From positions 620,001-684,000 of the forward strand of contig JABTUS010000001.1 of the NCBI GenBank assembly GCA_015075305.1: DNA of 64,000 nt. Reading direction: 5' to 3'. Shown in pieces: positions 16,790-63,280 of this stretch (positions are counted from its first letter, which is position 1; each line of letters begins with the position of its first letter). This stretch comes from Opitutaceae bacterium (GTDB taxonomy: Bacteria; Verrucomicrobiota; Verrucomicrobiia; Opitutales; Opitutaceae). The position numbers and the translations under genes were made by a program. The notes under the pieces are model-generated. The model made no database searches, was not told where the DNA came from, and saw only the letters and a list, made by a program, of their open reading frames with translations.

Positions 16790-18796
16790 ATGAGCAGTCC
16801 ATCCACCATCGCATCCACGACAGCACGCGATTCCAAGGCACCCAGCCCGGCGCCGCCCGCCCCGCCGAACCCATCGAAACGAGGGCGATGGGCCGCTGGT
16901 GTCGCGCTCGTCCTTGGACTGGCCTATCTGGTCGGCCCGCTGTTCAAGGTCGAAACACCCAGGGGCTTCGACTTTGACGGATTCGGTCGTCTGCCGATTC
17001 TCGTGAACGGTCGCCTGAAGCCCATGGACACCGTCGCACGGACTTCCCTGCTGATGCTCCAGGACCGCCAGCGCGTCAGCTCGCCGACAACCGGCAATCT
17101 TGTCGAATCACCCACCGAGTGGCTGCTCGACGTGCTTTTCCGCCCCGAGATCGCGGACACCTATCCGGTGTTTGCCATCGACAACCCCGATCTGCTGTCG
17201 CTGCTCGGATTCACCGAGGAGTCGCTGAAGATCAACTACACGAAAACGTCCCAGCGCGTGCTCGCGGCGGTCGGCTTCATGCCGGGAACGTATCGACGTT
17301 TCTCCTACAGGCAGCTCGATCCCAAACTCGCCGAGATCGACAAGCAGTCGCAGCTCGCGCAGCCAACGGAGGAGGCGCTGCGCACGCCGTTTCAGAAGGC
17401 CGTCATCGAGCTCCGCGACCGGCTCGTGCTGTACAACCGCCTCAAGCATTCGCTCATCCCGCCGGGCAGCACCAATCCGCTGGCCGAGTTCGACGCCTTC
17501 ATCAAGGGCATTCCCGCTGGGACGGCCGCGATCCGCGCCCGACAGCAGGGCCAGCCCCATGACGAGGCTGCAGCCAAGGCTACACTCGAATCCGCGCAGC
17601 GCTACGAGTTCATGGGTCGCATGGGATACCTCCTGGCCATTCCACCCCTGGACGGTTCCACTGATCCGAATGGCTGGAAGACTGCGGGCAACGCCCTGCT
17701 TGAATCCTTTCAAACCGGCGACCTGAATCCGACCGTTCTCGCCTACGCCGGCATGGCGACGGCCTGGCGGGCGCGTCAGGTCGAGCAGTTCAACACCATC
17801 GTGAAGCTGTTCCGGGACATCCTGGTGAAGCGGTTTCCCGACCGCCTCTCGAAAACCAACGCCGAGGTTCGCTTCAACGCCGCGGAGCCGTTTCTCCGCT
17901 CCTTGACGCTCTATGTCGTTGTGTTCTTTCTCGGCATCTTTTCGTGGATGCGCGCACCGGAGATGCTCGGGCGCTCCGCCAGCGCCCTGCTGATCCTCGC
18001 GTGGATCGCCACAACAGTCGGAATCGGAACCCGCATGTGGCTGGAGGGTCGCCCCCCGGTGACCAACCTCTATTCTTCAGCCCTCTTTGTCGGCTGGGCG
18101 GCGGTCGGCCTGTGCGTGCTGCTCGAGCGACTGTACCGCAATGGCATCGGCCTGGTCGCCGGCGGGATGATCGGATTCGCCACGCTGCTGATCGCGCACC
18201 ACCTTTCACTCTCGGGCGACACGCTTGAGATGATGCGCGCCGTGCTGGACTCGAATTTCTGGCTGGCGACCCATGTGGTCACCATCACCGTCGGATACTC
18301 CGCGACCTATCTGGCCGGGTTCCTCGCCTTCATCTACGTCATCCGCGGTGTGTTCACGAGCGGGCTCGACGCGCGCACCGCCGCCTCCATCAAGAGCATG
18401 GTGTACGGCATCATCTGCTTCGCGGCGCTTTTCAGCCTGGTCGGCACGATCCTCGGCGGGATCTGGGCTGACCAATCCTGGGGCCGCTTCTGGGGCTGGG
18501 ATCCCAAGGAGAACGGCGCGCTCATCATCGTCATCTGGAACGCCCTGATCCTGCACGCCCGCTGGGGCGGATGGATCCGGACGCGCGGACTCATGGCTCT
18601 CGCCATCTTTGGAAACATTGTCACAAGCTGGAGCTGGTTCGGCACCAACATGCTGGGTGTGGGACTGCACAGCTACGGATTCATGGAGGCCGCGTTCTAC
18701 TGGCTGCTCGCCTTCTGCATCGGACAGGTCGCACTGATCGCCATCGCGAACATCCCCCTCAGGCACTGGCGCAGCGGCAGGCACCTGAACTCCTGA
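16790..18796 (+). CDS. ccsA: Cytochrome c biogenesis protein CcsA/ResC
   Basis: A 668-residue protein, about twice the length of a minimal CcsA. The N-terminal half has one helix (AAGVALVLGLAYLVGPLF, about 25-42) and a soluble periplasmic region of about 320 residues. The C-terminal half from about residue 365 is a multi-helix membrane domain. It contains the tryptophan-rich heme-handling WWD motif WGRFWGWDPKENGALI (about residue 565) and histidines in HHLSLSGDT, ATHVVTITVGY and LHSYGFMEA. It conveys heme to ResB for thioether attachment. The enlarged N-terminal domain is seen in Bacteroidetes/Verrucomicrobia-type CcsA proteins. Confidence 0.92.
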   Translation: MSSPSTIASTTARDSKAPSPAPPAPPNPSKRGRWAAGVALVLGLAYLVGPLFKVETPRGFDFDGFGRLPILVNGRLKPMDTVARTSLLMLQDRQRVSSPTTGNLVESPTEWLLDVLFRPEIADTYPVFAIDNPDLLSLLGFTEESLKINYTKTSQRVLAAVGFMPGTYRRFSYRQLDPKLAEIDKQSQLAQPTEEALRTPFQKAVIELRDRLVLYNRLKHSLIPPGSTNPLAEFDAFIKGIPAGTAAIRARQQGQPHDEAAAKATLESAQRYEFMGRMGYLLAIPPLDGSTDPNGWKTAGNALLESFQTGDLNPTVLAYAGMATAWRARQVEQFNTIVKLFRDILVKRFPDRLSKTNAEVRFNAAEPFLRSLTLYVVVFFLGIFSWMRAPEMLGRSASALLILAWIATTVGIGTRMWLEGRPPVTNLYSSALFVGWAAVGLCVLLERLYRNGIGLVAGGMIGFATLLIAHHLSLSGDTLEMMRAVLDSNFWLATHVVTITVGYSATYLAGFLAFIYVIRGVFTSGLDARTAASIKSMVYGIICFAALFSLVGTILGGIWADQSWGRFWGWDPKENGALIIVIWNALILHARWGGWIRTRGLMALAIFGNIVTSWSWFGTNMLGVGLHSYGFMEAAFYWLLAFCIGQVALIAIANIPLRHWRSGRHLNS

Positions 18797-18835
18797 AGAA
18801 CGAGGTGCCCGCCGGCCGGTTCGATCGACCTCAAC

Positions 18836-18922
18836 TGGAGGGGCATGCATTGTCATCCAATCCGGTCACGACGAAGCGTGCCCCTGCTTTTATTTCGTTG
18901 GAAGGGCATGCTTTGTCATGCC
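18836..18922. repeat. Dispersed palindromic repeat cluster upstream of vapBC
   Basis: Three related units: 18836-18856 (GGAGGGGCATGC then TTGTCAT), its inverted relative 18864-18886 (GGTCACGAC then AAGCGTGCCCCTG), and 18899-18920 (GGAAGGGCATGC then TTTGTCATG). The first two pair into a long imperfect hairpin. The same family recurs at 19643-19730 and 63158-63280. The architecture resembles REP/BIME elements. The segment 18923-19037 before vapB holds no other clear feature. Confidence 0.65.
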
Positions 18923-19037
18923 CAGGGGACGCACGCTGCAAAACGGTGCCTGGAATTATGCCTCACACCGAGGCTTGCCCATCGCGGCCAGCCTGGGCAG
19001 GCTTGACGATGCAGATCAATCATGCACATTCATCTGC

Positions 19038-19238
19038 ATGCGGACGACGCTCAATCTGGATGACTCCCTCATGGAGGAGGCCGGCAGGTACGCAGGCCTG
19101 AAGGAGAAGACCGCGCTCCTGCACGAAGGCCTGCGGGCGCTCATCCAGCGGGAGGCGGCGGCACGATTGTCGGCTCTCGGAGGCAAGGACACCAGTGCCA
19201 GGGCGGCTCCGCGCCGGAAGCCCGCCGGACGCACGTGA
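19038..19238 (+). CDS. vapB: Type II antitoxin, VapB-like
   Basis: A 66-residue protein from the ATG at 19038 (MRTTLNLDDSLMEEAGRYAG). The beta strand RTTLNLDDSLM followed by two helices is the ribbon-helix-helix/MetJ-Arc fold of VapB-type antitoxins. LKEKTALLHEGLRALIQREAAARL matches the antitoxin family that ends in a toxin-binding tail, and the C-terminus is basic and probably unstructured. It overlaps the vapC start as GTGA. The antitoxin should neutralise VapC and repress its own promoter as a complex. Confidence 0.85.
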   Translation: MRTTLNLDDSLMEEAGRYAGLKEKTALLHEGLRALIQREAAARLSALGGKDTSARAAPRRKPAGRT

Positions 19239-19630
19239 GGGCGTTGGTGGACACTTCGGTCTGGATCGATCATTTCCACAGGGCCGATGTCAATCTTCAG
19301 GTGTGTTTGCGGGCGGGAGCGGTCTGGACCCACACCGTGGTCATCGGTGAGCTGGCGGCCGGGCGCCTCAAGCAACGCGCCGAGGTGCTGAATCACCTGC
19401 GCAAGCTTCCACAAGCCGCAGAAATCAGCCTGGCCGAAGGGCTGCATCTCCTCGAGGAGCATGCTCTCATGGGCCGTGGTTTGTCCTGGTCGGATGTGCA
19501 GTTGCTGGCCGCGGCGCGCATTGACGGGCTGAAACTCTGGACACGGGACAAAGCGCTGGCCCGGGCAGCTCGGGACCTTGGGCTGGCGCTTGCCGTCGCC
19601 GGGCCGCGACCGCACCTTCCAGCGCAATGA
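19235..19630 (+). CDS. vapC: PIN-domain ribonuclease toxin VapC
   Basis: A 131-residue PIN-domain protein from the GTG at 19235. The acidic active-site residues are visible: Asp in ALVDTSVWIDHF, Glu in HTVVIGELAAGR, Asp in GRGLSWSDVQLLAAA and Asp in LWTRDKALARAA. VapC toxins are magnesium-dependent endonucleases, often cutting tRNA or rRNA. The pair lies between two clusters of a dispersed palindromic repeat, which suggests it sits in a hypervariable, acquisition-prone spot. Confidence 0.88.
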   Translation: MRALVDTSVWIDHFHRADVNLQVCLRAGAVWTHTVVIGELAAGRLKQRAEVLNHLRKLPQAAEISLAEGLHLLEEHALMGRGLSWSDVQLLAAARIDGLKLWTRDKALARAARDLGLALAVAGPRPHLPAQ

Positions 19631-19642
19631 CCGGGCGAAGCC

Positions 19643-19730
19643 AGGGCATGACGGAGCATGCCCCTCCAGTGGGACTCAAACATTTCCAATCGAGCGCGCG
19701 CCGCCAGGTCACGACGGAGCGTTCCCCTCG
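19643..19730. repeat. Dispersed palindromic repeat cluster downstream of vapBC
   Basis: Two units in the same orientation: 19643-19668 (GGGCATGACGGAGCATGCCC and CTCCA) and 19707-19729 (GGTCACGACGGAGCGTTCCC and CTC). Both match the units at 18864-18886 and 63158-63182. The second contains the last eight codons and the stop of the minus-strand addA-like gene. Confidence 0.65.
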
Positions 19731-22700
19731 ACAAATTCCCTGATTCGGGTGAACACCAGCGCCGCCGTGACCGCGCTGAGCTCCAGTCCCGTCAGCCTCG
19801 CCGCGGCCTTCCGGTAGATTTCAATCTGCCCCGCATACCGACGCGCGGCCTCCAGCGCTTCATCACGGCTTGAAACGCGGTCGGTCTTGAAATCCCAAAC
19901 TCTCACCCGCAACGGCGCGCCTTGTTCGTCGCGCTCAATCACCACGCGGTCAAACACCCCGGTCACCCACACGCCGTCCAGAATCACCTCGAACGCCCGC
20001 TCGCGCCAGAGGTCCGCGCGAGCAGCGCCGGGCGGCCGGCGAAAGACTTTGCCCAGTTCACCGGCCTCCATGCAGGCAATCATTTCCGCGCAGGCCATTG
20101 TTCCGATTTCTCCGGGAGGCGTCTTCGCCATGACCCTTTCCCTCCAGGCATCGCCGCTCCACTCCACTACCGCGAACAAGGCATGCACCGCGGTGCCAAA
20201 TTCCGCGGCAACCCGCGGCTCCAGATCGAAGAGCGCCGGCACGGCCACAAGCGCGCGCTCCGTTCCCGAGGGCGTGAGCGTGGCAAGGCGCGTGCGACGC
20301 AGTGCAGGCCGGCCATCGGCATCCGCCGGCAGCCAGGATTCAATGACACCGGGTCGCGCCTGCACCGGCTCCACCCGCTGGATGGACTCATACCAAAGCG
20401 GGTTTCCGTCCACATGGCTTTCCCCAACGGCTTCGCGAAGCAGCCTGGGAAACGACAGCGCCTTGGAGTTTCCAACGGGTTCAACAATGACGTACATCGC
20501 GCGTTTCGCCCGCGTCATGGCGACATAGAGGACGCAGAGCGATTCATACGCCGCATCCTCCTCCGCCGAGTCCTTGTACGCGCCAAGCACAGCGTCGTGC
20601 TCGACAAACGCATTGGGTGGAAGGTCAAGCACCCACTCCACCGATCGATCGGCCGCCTTCCTGACTGCCAGGCCGCGGCGCCGCTGCCCGAGGCCGCCGC
20701 CCTCAAGGTCGGGAAGGACAACCAGATCGAATCCGAGCCCCTTCGCCTTGTGAACCGTCATCACCCTGACAACCACAGGCGAATCACCATCGCGCTTCAC
20801 ATGCCTCTCCGCAAATTCCAGGAACTCCGCAAAATCGCGACTCCCCGTCTCATCAAATGCATGCGCGGCCTCAAACCAGTCCCGCGCACGACTCCGGCTG
20901 AACTCATCCGCAGGATCGAGCCGCCCCTCCAGATCGCCAATCCAGAATTCAAGCCCTCCGGCAAAGCCGGCCTCGTGCACCGCCGCAATCAGCGCGAGCG
21001 TCAGCTCCTCCTGCGTGCGAATCCCGCGGGCCGCCATCACCGCCGCCAATGGCGTCATCTGAACATGCTCCCATGCCAGCGAGTCTCCCGGGAACGCGGC
21101 CGCGCGCACGAGCGCAAGCAGCGCCGCTCCCAACGGATTGTCGGTGCACACGGGAATGTCGCTCTCGGCCACGGCCCGCAGGCCGCCCTGCGTGCGGAGG
21201 TAGTTGGCCAGTTCAGCCGCCGTGTCGTTCTTCTGCACCAGCAGCGCCACCGTCAATCCCCGGGCGAGCGGATCGATTTCCCGAAGCAGGCGCAGCGTCT
21301 CCGAAAACCGCGCATCCTTGTCCGCCGCACAAAGCACCTCCACATGGCCGCCCCTGCCCGGATGCGCGGACGTGTGTTCGCGCCATTCCCTGCTCCACGC
21401 CGCCGCTGTTCCCGCGGGCACGACTGTCGCCAGCGCCTGCCTGTCGCCAAAGACGCGGTTAACCAGGCGGATCACCTCGGGACCCGAGCGCCAGGATTGG
21501 TTGAGCTGCAGCTCCTCGATCGCGCCCGTCTTCGCGGCGTTGTAGTGATTGAATATCTCGCGGAACAGGCGGGGATCCCCCTCGCGCCAGGAGTAGATCG
21601 CCTGTTTCACGTCACCGACATAGAAGAACGAGCGCCGCCCCTCCGGATCCTGCACCGCCTCGTCGATCAGATTCCTGAGGATGCTCCACTGCCCGAAACT
21701 CGTGTCCTGAAACTCGTCAAGCAGCCAGTGGTCGTACTCCGCATCGAGGCGCCAGTCGATCGCCAGGCGCAGCTCCTCCCGCGACTCGCCGGGACCTGAC
21801 AAATGCAGCGTCGGGCCGCCCGCGCCTGGCAGGAGCAGACGCTGGACATCGGCAAAGGTCAGCCTTCCGCCCCGGCGCACGCTGTCGTGATAGACCTGCT
21901 CGTATCCGCGCAGCACCGCATGGAGTCCGCGGGTCATCTCAATGCGCCGCTCGATCTCCTCGCGGCCGATCGACAGGATGATGTCACGCAGGACCCTGCC
22001 CGCGTCCGGCGAAAGCGAAACTTTCCTTCGTTCAACCGTGAGACTTGCGCGTCCGGACGACAGGTCCCCCCAGACCTTGAAGGCATTGTCCACGATGTAC
22101 GAGAGCGGCTTGCTCATCGGCGCACCCGCGCGCCATGTTTTCCACTCGGAGAAGAAATCCACGAACCGCTGCCGCTGCTCCACCGACATGCCATCCCACG
22201 GGAGCGCGGCTCGCAGTTCATCCCAGGCGTCTTCGCGCACCAGGGGTTGCGCACTCAGCCAGGCGCAACCGTCGGGCCAGATCCTCCCGGGCCGCCCCCA
22301 GGCTTCGGGATCCGGAGCCGCCAGGTAGGTCTCCGCATGCTCGTCGAGAAAGCTGTCGAGTCGGCGGCTCAGCTGCTTTTCCTCCGCTCCAAAGGTCGCC
22401 CGTTTGAAGGCCTCAATGAAGACCGACTGACGCTTGTCGCTTTCGTCCGATGCCGCGAAGAGCGATCGCAGCACGCGGCGCCGGGCCCGCATGGCCGCGT
22501 GCTCCTGCAGAATGTCGAACTCCCCGCTCAGTCCGAGTTCGAGCGGAAAGCTGCGCACAATCCGCGCAAAGAACCCGTCGAGCGTGCCAAGCCTCAGCAC
22601 CGGCATCGCATCCACGACTGTGCGCAGCATCGCGAGGAAGTCCGCGCATGAGTGTCCCTCCCAGCCAATGGCGCGCGCCAGGCGCCGCGCCTCGTCCTCG

Positions 22701-22894
22701 CCGGCCGCCGCCCTGGCCAGCTTGTTCAGGATCTCATCGAAGAACTCGCCCGCCGCCTTCCGCGTGAATGTCAGCGCGACGATCCGCTCCGGAGAGACGC
22801 CGCGCGCCAGCAGCGCAACGTACCGGTTGGTCAGTGCATGGGTCTTGCCCGAACCCGCCGAGGCGAGGATCATCGTGTGGCGCAGCGGAGTCAT
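19709..22894 (-). CDS. addA: UvrD/RecB-type helicase-nuclease, AddA-like
   Basis: A 1061-residue superfamily 1 helicase. Walker A is ILASAGSGKTHAL (residues 9-21), motif II is LLDEFQDTSFGQW (about 395), GDVKQAIYSWREGDP is present (about 430), and VRVMTVHKAKGLGFDLVVLPDL is motif V-like. The C-terminal PD-(D/E)XK nuclease motif is VRVWDFKTDR (about 997). AddAB processes double-strand breaks for RecA-dependent repair. It starts inside the addB stop (ATGA overlap), which supports a two-subunit complex. The final residues VEGNAPS and the TGA lie inside a copy of the dispersed repeat, so the natural C-terminus may have been replaced or extended. Confidence 0.87.
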   Translation of the reverse strand: MTPLRHTMILASAGSGKTHALTNRYVALLARGVSPERIVALTFTRKAAGEFFDEILNKLARAAAGEDEARRLARAIGWEGHSCADFLAMLRTVVDAMPVLRLGTLDGFFARIVRSFPLELGLSGEFDILQEHAAMRARRRVLRSLFAASDESDKRQSVFIEAFKRATFGAEEKQLSRRLDSFLDEHAETYLAAPDPEAWGRPGRIWPDGCAWLSAQPLVREDAWDELRAALPWDGMSVEQRQRFVDFFSEWKTWRAGAPMSKPLSYIVDNAFKVWGDLSSGRASLTVERRKVSLSPDAGRVLRDIILSIGREEIERRIEMTRGLHAVLRGYEQVYHDSVRRGGRLTFADVQRLLLPGAGGPTLHLSGPGESREELRLAIDWRLDAEYDHWLLDEFQDTSFGQWSILRNLIDEAVQDPEGRRSFFYVGDVKQAIYSWREGDPRLFREIFNHYNAAKTGAIEELQLNQSWRSGPEVIRLVNRVFGDRQALATVVPAGTAAAWSREWREHTSAHPGRGGHVEVLCAADKDARFSETLRLLREIDPLARGLTVALLVQKNDTAAELANYLRTQGGLRAVAESDIPVCTDNPLGAALLALVRAAAFPGDSLAWEHVQMTPLAAVMAARGIRTQEELTLALIAAVHEAGFAGGLEFWIGDLEGRLDPADEFSRSRARDWFEAAHAFDETGSRDFAEFLEFAERHVKRDGDSPVVVRVMTVHKAKGLGFDLVVLPDLEGGGLGQRRRGLAVRKAADRSVEWVLDLPPNAFVEHDAVLGAYKDSAEEDAAYESLCVLYVAMTRAKRAMYVIVEPVGNSKALSFPRLLREAVGESHVDGNPLWYESIQRVEPVQARPGVIESWLPADADGRPALRRTRLATLTPSGTERALVAVPALFDLEPRVAAEFGTAVHALFAVVEWSGDAWRERVMAKTPPGEIGTMACAEMIACMEAGELGKVFRRPPGAARADLWRERAFEVILDGVWVTGVFDRVVIERDEQGAPLRVRVWDFKTDRVSSRDEALEAARRYAGQIEIYRKAAARLTGLELSAVTAALVFTRIREFVEGNAPS

Positions 22895-63157: not shown

Positions 63158-63280
63158 GGTCACGACGGAGCGTGCCCCTCCATTGGGAATCGGTCACTTG
63201 CATTCGATGGTTCAGTCCCATTGGGCAATGGAGATTCTGTGTCGCTATTCGAGCCGGGCACGAGGGAGCTTGCCCATTGG
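63158..63280. repeat. Dispersed palindromic repeat, third locus
   Basis: 63158-63182 (GGTCACGACGGAGCGTGCCC and CTCCA) matches the units near vapBC at 18864 and 19707 almost exactly. A second, more diverged copy lies at 63256-63279 (GGGCACGAGGGAGCTTGCCC and ATTG). It occupies the gap between the SRPBCC pseudogene and the AraC-family regulator. Confidence 0.65.

Follow-up and report, generated by a model that had tools for sequence, protein, structure and literature searches.

Short palindromic repeats bracket a predicted vapBC toxin–antitoxin pair in the 64,000-nt stretch of Opitutaceae DNA analyzed here (hereafter the window), which raises the question of whether they mark or promote the insertion of small cassettes, as a first-pass annotation had suggested. 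That annotation had also named the pair, and profile searches agree with it. The vapB antitoxin gene (66 aa; 19038–19238, + strand) is followed by vapC, which encodes a PIN-domain toxin of 131 aa (19235–19630, +; PF01850, 8e-9) and whose GTG start overlaps the vapB stop; a match of vapC to NF047959 (3.2e-5, 24 bits) stays under the cut-off of 80. PF09957 matches residues 41–82 of a longer vapB frame (2.2e-15) that starts at 18918, within the third repeat unit. We consider 19038 the better start; the 66-aa vapB aligns from its residue 1 at seven of eight homologous loci, the eighth having no vapB match. A VapB gene that overlaps a PIN toxin gene, the arrangement that defines type II vapBC loci, makes this a predicted toxin–antitoxin pair. 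Upstream of the repeats lies a cytochrome c assembly gene (CcsA-like, ccs; 16790–18796, +; PF01578, 3.3e-20) and downstream a gene for a UvrD/AddA-like helicase-nuclease (19709–22894, −; PF00580, 2.8e-33; PF12705, 1e-9).

The repeat unit spans 24 nt, a GGAG head followed by a hairpin with a 7-bp stem and 6-nt loop (consensus GGAGGGGCAYGCTYYGTCRTGMCC; hairpin GGAGGGGCACGC). We take the GGAG head to be equivalent to the published GTAG head of repetitive extragenic palindromes (REPs), and a plus sign denotes a unit with its GGAG head on the left. The reported layout of three units upstream of vapBC and two downstream was recovered. Unit 1 (18837–18860, +) is decayed, with four mismatches to the consensus, and ends 3 nt before unit 2 (18864–18887, −; two mismatches), heads outside; unit 3 (18900–18923, +; two mismatches) has a perfect 7-bp stem and holds the ATG of the over-long vapB frame. 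Beyond the pair, unit 4 (19644–19667, −) matches the consensus exactly and lies 13 nt 3′ of vapC, and unit 5 (19707–19730, −) has two mismatches. The more distant site that had been described is also present, with an exact copy at 63158–63181 (unit 6, −) and a degenerate REP-like hairpin at 63256–63275, given no strand, which has one mismatch to a relaxed 20-nt pattern only, a pattern that yields 1.14 chance matches per shuffle. With up to three mismatches, the window contains five matches (four by vapBC and one at 63158, the decayed unit 1 not being counted), against none in 100 dinucleotide shuffles. An Rfam search of the window gave no match.

Adjacent inverted units had been proposed to fold into long hairpins. 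This holds for units 1 and 2, inverted and 3 nt apart, which form one long single-stranded DNA hairpin (18834–18892; −12.6 kcal/mol, z −2.9), and fails for units 4 and 5, which are in tandem and fold no better than shuffles (19640–19735; z −0.74). Unit 5 is not purely intergenic, as the minus-strand helicase frame ends in ...EGNAPS* within it. The helicase of the three closest relatives aligns only up to residue 1055 of 1061; in two more distant relatives (L109 and L110) it aligns through residue 1061, and the REP-encoded EGNAPS is not matched. The helicase gene thus takes its stop and final codons from the repeat (19709–19730).

The units belong to a dispersed family, as anticipated from their likeness to REP/BIME elements. 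The genome (4.87 Mb) contains 248 copies, 134 forward and 114 reverse, and a reversed-pattern control found none; since the genome gives 248 against 0 and the window 5 against 0 in 100 shuffles, chance is excluded. Among 105 copies on contig C1, the loop is CTTTGT in 50, CTCCGT in 32 and CTTCGT in 12. Standard pairing is seen at the inner stem pairs 8-21, 9-20, 10-19 and 11-18 in, respectively, 101, 102, 100 and 105 of these copies, which were picked by a pattern allowing either A/G or C/T at positions 9, 10, 19 and 20. Pair 10-19 changes from C-G to T-A in eight of the 105 copies, with both sides of the stem altered, and at pair 7-22 a mismatch of G with A occurs in 81. Conservation drops sharply beyond the 24 nt. 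At up to four mismatches, 101 of 112 copies on C1 lie between genes as called by a rough script. These are short imperfect palindromes with a 4-nt unpaired head, present in high copy number and mostly intergenic, as REPs are.

Among C1 gaps of 30 bp or more, REPs occupy 14 of 115 between convergent genes, 21 of 302 between tandem genes and 3 of 116 between divergent genes, numbers that are approximate because the simple gene caller misplaces reading frames: it put a wrong-strand frame over vapBC, and at the 11 PIN matches on C1 it held a frame at eight, some on the wrong strand. The copies are far from evenly spread. A single 63-kb exosortase/polysaccharide cluster (C1:299699–361802; loci L036–L040), with genes for an exosortase, a PEP-CTERM TPR protein, a nucleotide-sugar dehydrogenase, a glycosyltransferase and an ABC-2 permease, holds 66 of the 105, and REPs occur in 17 of its 36 gaps versus 21 of 497 elsewhere on C1. 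Ten of the 14 heads-outside neighbors in this cluster have starts 121–123 bp apart, and these pairs share a conserved spacer. Across C1, 43 REP clusters comprise 20 singlets and 7 doublets, three of them heads-outside, so that inverted doublets of fixed spacing, the majority form in a REPIN population, are a minority here.

A search for a REP-associated tyrosine transposase (RAYT), which the first-pass annotation had recommended, was successful. The gene was reached through the REP pattern itself. An exact-pattern scan of named genomes returned 103 matching stretches; among the 80 listed, labels include Verrucomicrobiota, Opitutaceae, Chthoniobacterales, Lentisphaerae, Latescibacterota and a 'Chthonomonas' MAG, among others. 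One retrieved contig (L224) has a 155-aa frame adjoining an array of these REPs (NF047646, 93 bits), and the homologue of this frame in our genome is at C11:179836–180300 (44% identity). The resulting RAYT on contig C11 has 165 aa, matches NF047646 with 90.2 bits (cut-off 80) and has no Pfam match at 0.001. It sits between inverted copies of the same REP, 70 bp before its start and 46 bp after its stop (locus L320: REP(+) 1389–1412, gene 1483–1980, REP(−) 2027–2050). The protein has the HUH motif and the tyrosine expected of a RAYT; H71, H73 and Y139, which we take to be the catalytic residues, are identical in all 26 rows of an alignment comprising this RAYT and 25 of 33 other loci, from which we removed any row that had a stop or an X or did not exceed 130 aa.

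The association between RAYT and hairpin extends well beyond this genome. RAYT homologues (E ≤ 1e-8) occur in 105 of 372 genomes of the order, our own included. We examined 34 RAYT loci, namely 29 of the best matches from the 372-genome search together with L224, L320, L321, L322 and L325 (split by N, and with a weak hairpin on one of its two sides), while a second entry for our own gene (L337) was excluded as the same as L320. GGAG- or GTAG-headed hairpins were found within 350 bp on both sides at 26 of the 34 loci, compared to 0 of 34 for control stretches 750–1100 bp away, three of 68 of which were shorter than full length (Fisher p 8e-12). Counted by side, hairpins were present at 26 and 30 loci versus 3 and 3 controls. 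The nearest two hairpins are inverted at 22 of the 26 both-sided loci. Where such hairpins were found, their stems vary widely among the 34 loci and the GGAG or GTAG head is constant, which makes them a useful data set for the specificity of the transposase for its hairpin. REPs also lie on both sides of the RAYT in G008, and the arrangement is partial in G002.

Searching 57 genomes with the REP pattern at three mismatches, we found copies in seven. Beside the 248 of our genome, four genomes of the same genus have 164, 134, 124 and 16, and the same search found none in five others of that genus. Outside the genus, one genome of another family (G038) has 28 copies and another genome a single copy. 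Three REP-bearing genomes gave no close RAYT match: G005, with 164 copies (best E 1.1e-7, 28%, in a longer frame), G007, with 134 (best E 0.024), and G038, which has no match at E ≤ 1. These assemblies consist of about 60, 210 and 140 contigs, respectively, and incomplete assembly, gene loss or a different transposase could account for the missing gene.

We conclude that this is a REP/RAYT system of known type, already reported in Verrucomicrobia. The GTAG-tagged REP super-family (Di Nocera et al. 2013, PMC3733652) is described there with a 4-nt head, an imperfect hairpin, dimers and clusters, as here, and likewise lies mostly between tandem or convergent genes, with some copies in UvrD-type genes. 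That account places REPs in Verrucomicrobia, with O. terrae 'highly enriched', and records REPs at gene ends and within UvrD-type genes as well as arrays of REPs next to the exopolysaccharide genes of Thauera sp. MZ1T (PMC3733652). The head differs, GGAG here against GTAG there; the main text of that paper has no GGAG-initial word. Inverted flanking REPs are described as a hallmark of RAYTs by Nunvar et al. (2010, PMC2817692), who, however, report a GT(A/G)G head and hold that RAYTs arose after gammaproteobacteria had branched off. The 121–123-bp pairs of the polysaccharide cluster resemble REPINs (Bertels and Rainey 2011, PMC3116915), in which two inverted REPs stand a fixed distance apart, but doublets are not dominant here (7 of 43 clusters on C1, against 20 singlets). 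A formerly unassigned repeat is in this way given its transposase, in a Verrucomicrobia-like lineage. Frame comparisons also point to a relationship with Opitutaceae: a MAG labelled Opitutaceae has 11 matched frames on C1, with a median identity of 65% and a best of 94%.

If the REPs were the ends of a vapBC cassette, one would expect them round the same cargo elsewhere. A single vapC match was found in our genome, none in the nine other same-genus genomes searched, and eight loci in seven other genomes; the pair therefore looks acquired. The closest vapC homologue (G025, 72% aa identity) resembles our locus at the DNA level only over window positions 19000–19563, so that homology ends inside the REPs, and the G025 locus lacks these repeats. 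The first-pass annotation had named vapBC without flanking repeats in all relatives as a refuting result; none of the eight homologous loci is bracketed by this REP, and one, in G038 (L149), has two degenerate units on the downstream side only. Six of these seven genomes have no copy of this REP at three mismatches, and they therefore show vapBC without it rather than its behavior among such repeats. Of the 36 PIN matches in our genome, 29 lie more than 600 bp from any REP; the other seven have one nearer than that, three of them on both sides. Among 802 non-PIN genes called on C1, 61 have one at this distance and 12 on both sides, which leaves a nominal excess near PIN genes (p about 0.02 in each of two uncorrected tests), with controls from one contig and distances measured from the matched domain in PINs and from the gene in controls. 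The nearest bracketing REPs at the three both-sided PIN genes are oriented + − (vapBC), − + and − +, and are therefore a poor fit to fixed cassette ends. Consistent REP ends round a cargo were thus not seen in several places or relatives, and the cassette proposal of the first-pass annotation finds no support. A search of one paper collection, in a single wording, found none joining repetitive extragenic palindromes, toxin–antitoxin and vapBC.

The vapBC pair sits at a junction in gene order that is specific to this lineage. In G005, G007 and G008 (ccs 86–87% and helicase 69% identical to ours), ccs is followed by a gene that we take to be MenB-like, as found by search in G005 and by eye in G007 and G008, and the helicase gene by a gene for a 33-aa basic protein. 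In our genome these ancestral neighbors of ccs and the helicase gene are on other contigs, the MenB-like gene at C9:174790–175629 and the 33-aa gene at C3:384255–384353; the REP-vapBC-REP stretch therefore sits where gene order changed. The 33-aa protein, rich in lysine and arginine (MGNLKKKRRLKMNKHKRRK...), follows the helicase in seven of eight relatives' loci (L106–L111 and L113).

This junction could be a recombination scar, left when homology between REP copies allowed a rearrangement to bring ccs and the helicase gene together and vapBC was trapped there. The location on C9 and C3 of genes that adjoin ccs and the helicase gene in the three relatives is consistent with such an event. Yet, allowing five mismatches, we detected no REP in the 3.8 kb of the MenB locus (L155) and none up to 3 kb from the 33-aa gene on C3; those ccs and helicase loci of the relatives that we inspected had none either, and we regard this origin as unlikely. 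A REP-mediated inversion at the junction was likewise set aside once the ancestral neighbors had been located, with no REPs near them. Given how distant these relatives are (helicase 69% identity), the junction may also have seen other events in between. The repeats might instead serve as insulation, ending or stabilizing the vapBC, ccs and helicase transcripts. Each of the three genes, ccs, vapC and the helicase gene, does have REPs at its 3′ end, REP-bearing gaps on C1 are rarer between divergent than between convergent genes (3/116 vs 14/115, p 0.005, with a rough gene caller), and mRNA stabilization is among the published proposals for REPs (PMC3733652). However, the purging of insertions from promoters would yield the same gap distribution, and no terminator-like site between 18700 and 19900 overlaps any REP; insulation seems to us an unlikely explanation of the locus.

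A composite element would retain the cassette idea in another form: the inverted REPs at 18900 (+) and 19644 (−) would be its ends, and a RAYT would move vapBC as the cargo of a REPIN with a 720-bp insert. These two inner REPs share one stem and form an inverted pair with outward-pointing heads, like the 121–123-bp pairs of the polysaccharide cluster, and the lack of vapC matches in nine other same-genus genomes would agree with a mobile origin. But the inner REPs are unlike in head and loop, the single vapC match in the genome means that no second copy of such a unit was found, the other two both-sided PIN genes show the opposite orientation of nearest REPs, and none of the eight homologous loci is bracketed by this REP, although six of the seven genomes involved lack it. 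We consider a composite element highly improbable here. The general form of this idea, that RAYTs mobilize inverted REP pairs with gene-sized cargo and that vapBC is a 'REPIN with cargo', we hold to be more improbable still; if true, it would make REPs vehicles of toxin–antitoxin spread.

We consider it quite probable that the repeats are of REP/RAYT origin, that vapBC was acquired independently and that the bracketing is incidental. One GGAG-headed REP family would have been spread in trans by RAYT transposition, most likely by the RAYT on C11, the REPs moving singly and as inverted pairs and persisting chiefly in intergenic space. The vapBC pair, separately acquired, would sit in a gap that also gathered REPs, at a lineage-specific junction, and its bracketing would be incidental for that reason. 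We infer both that the RAYT moves the REPs and the order of these events. Several observations count against this reading: the REP-rich relatives with no close RAYT match, the nominal nearness of PIN genes to REPs, the eight of 34 RAYT loci missing both-sided hairpins, and the mismatch at stem pair 7-22. The locus nevertheless serves as a caution that repeats bracketing a toxin–antitoxin pair need not be cassette ends.

The five Pfam Y1_Tnp proteins of our genome had been candidates for the RAYT; none is bounded by this REP on both sides, and this route missed the actual gene. Two of them (L032 and L034, Y1 proteins of about 330 aa) each have inverted flanks of their own, (G)GGGTCA, which resemble the GGGGWSAS motif described for TIRYT/TIRtron elements (PMC3733652) with an inexact fit and are unlinked to the vapBC REP. 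Another, L033, has no REP within 1.5 kb, and L031 is a 78-aa IS200-like piece (NF033573, 77.9 bits). The remaining candidate, L035 (C2:41025–41255), is a Y1 domain in frame within a gene that is presumably methylase-like. A Y1-transposase domain within such a gene also occurs in G005 (L173), and the short flanks of both resemble another repeat.
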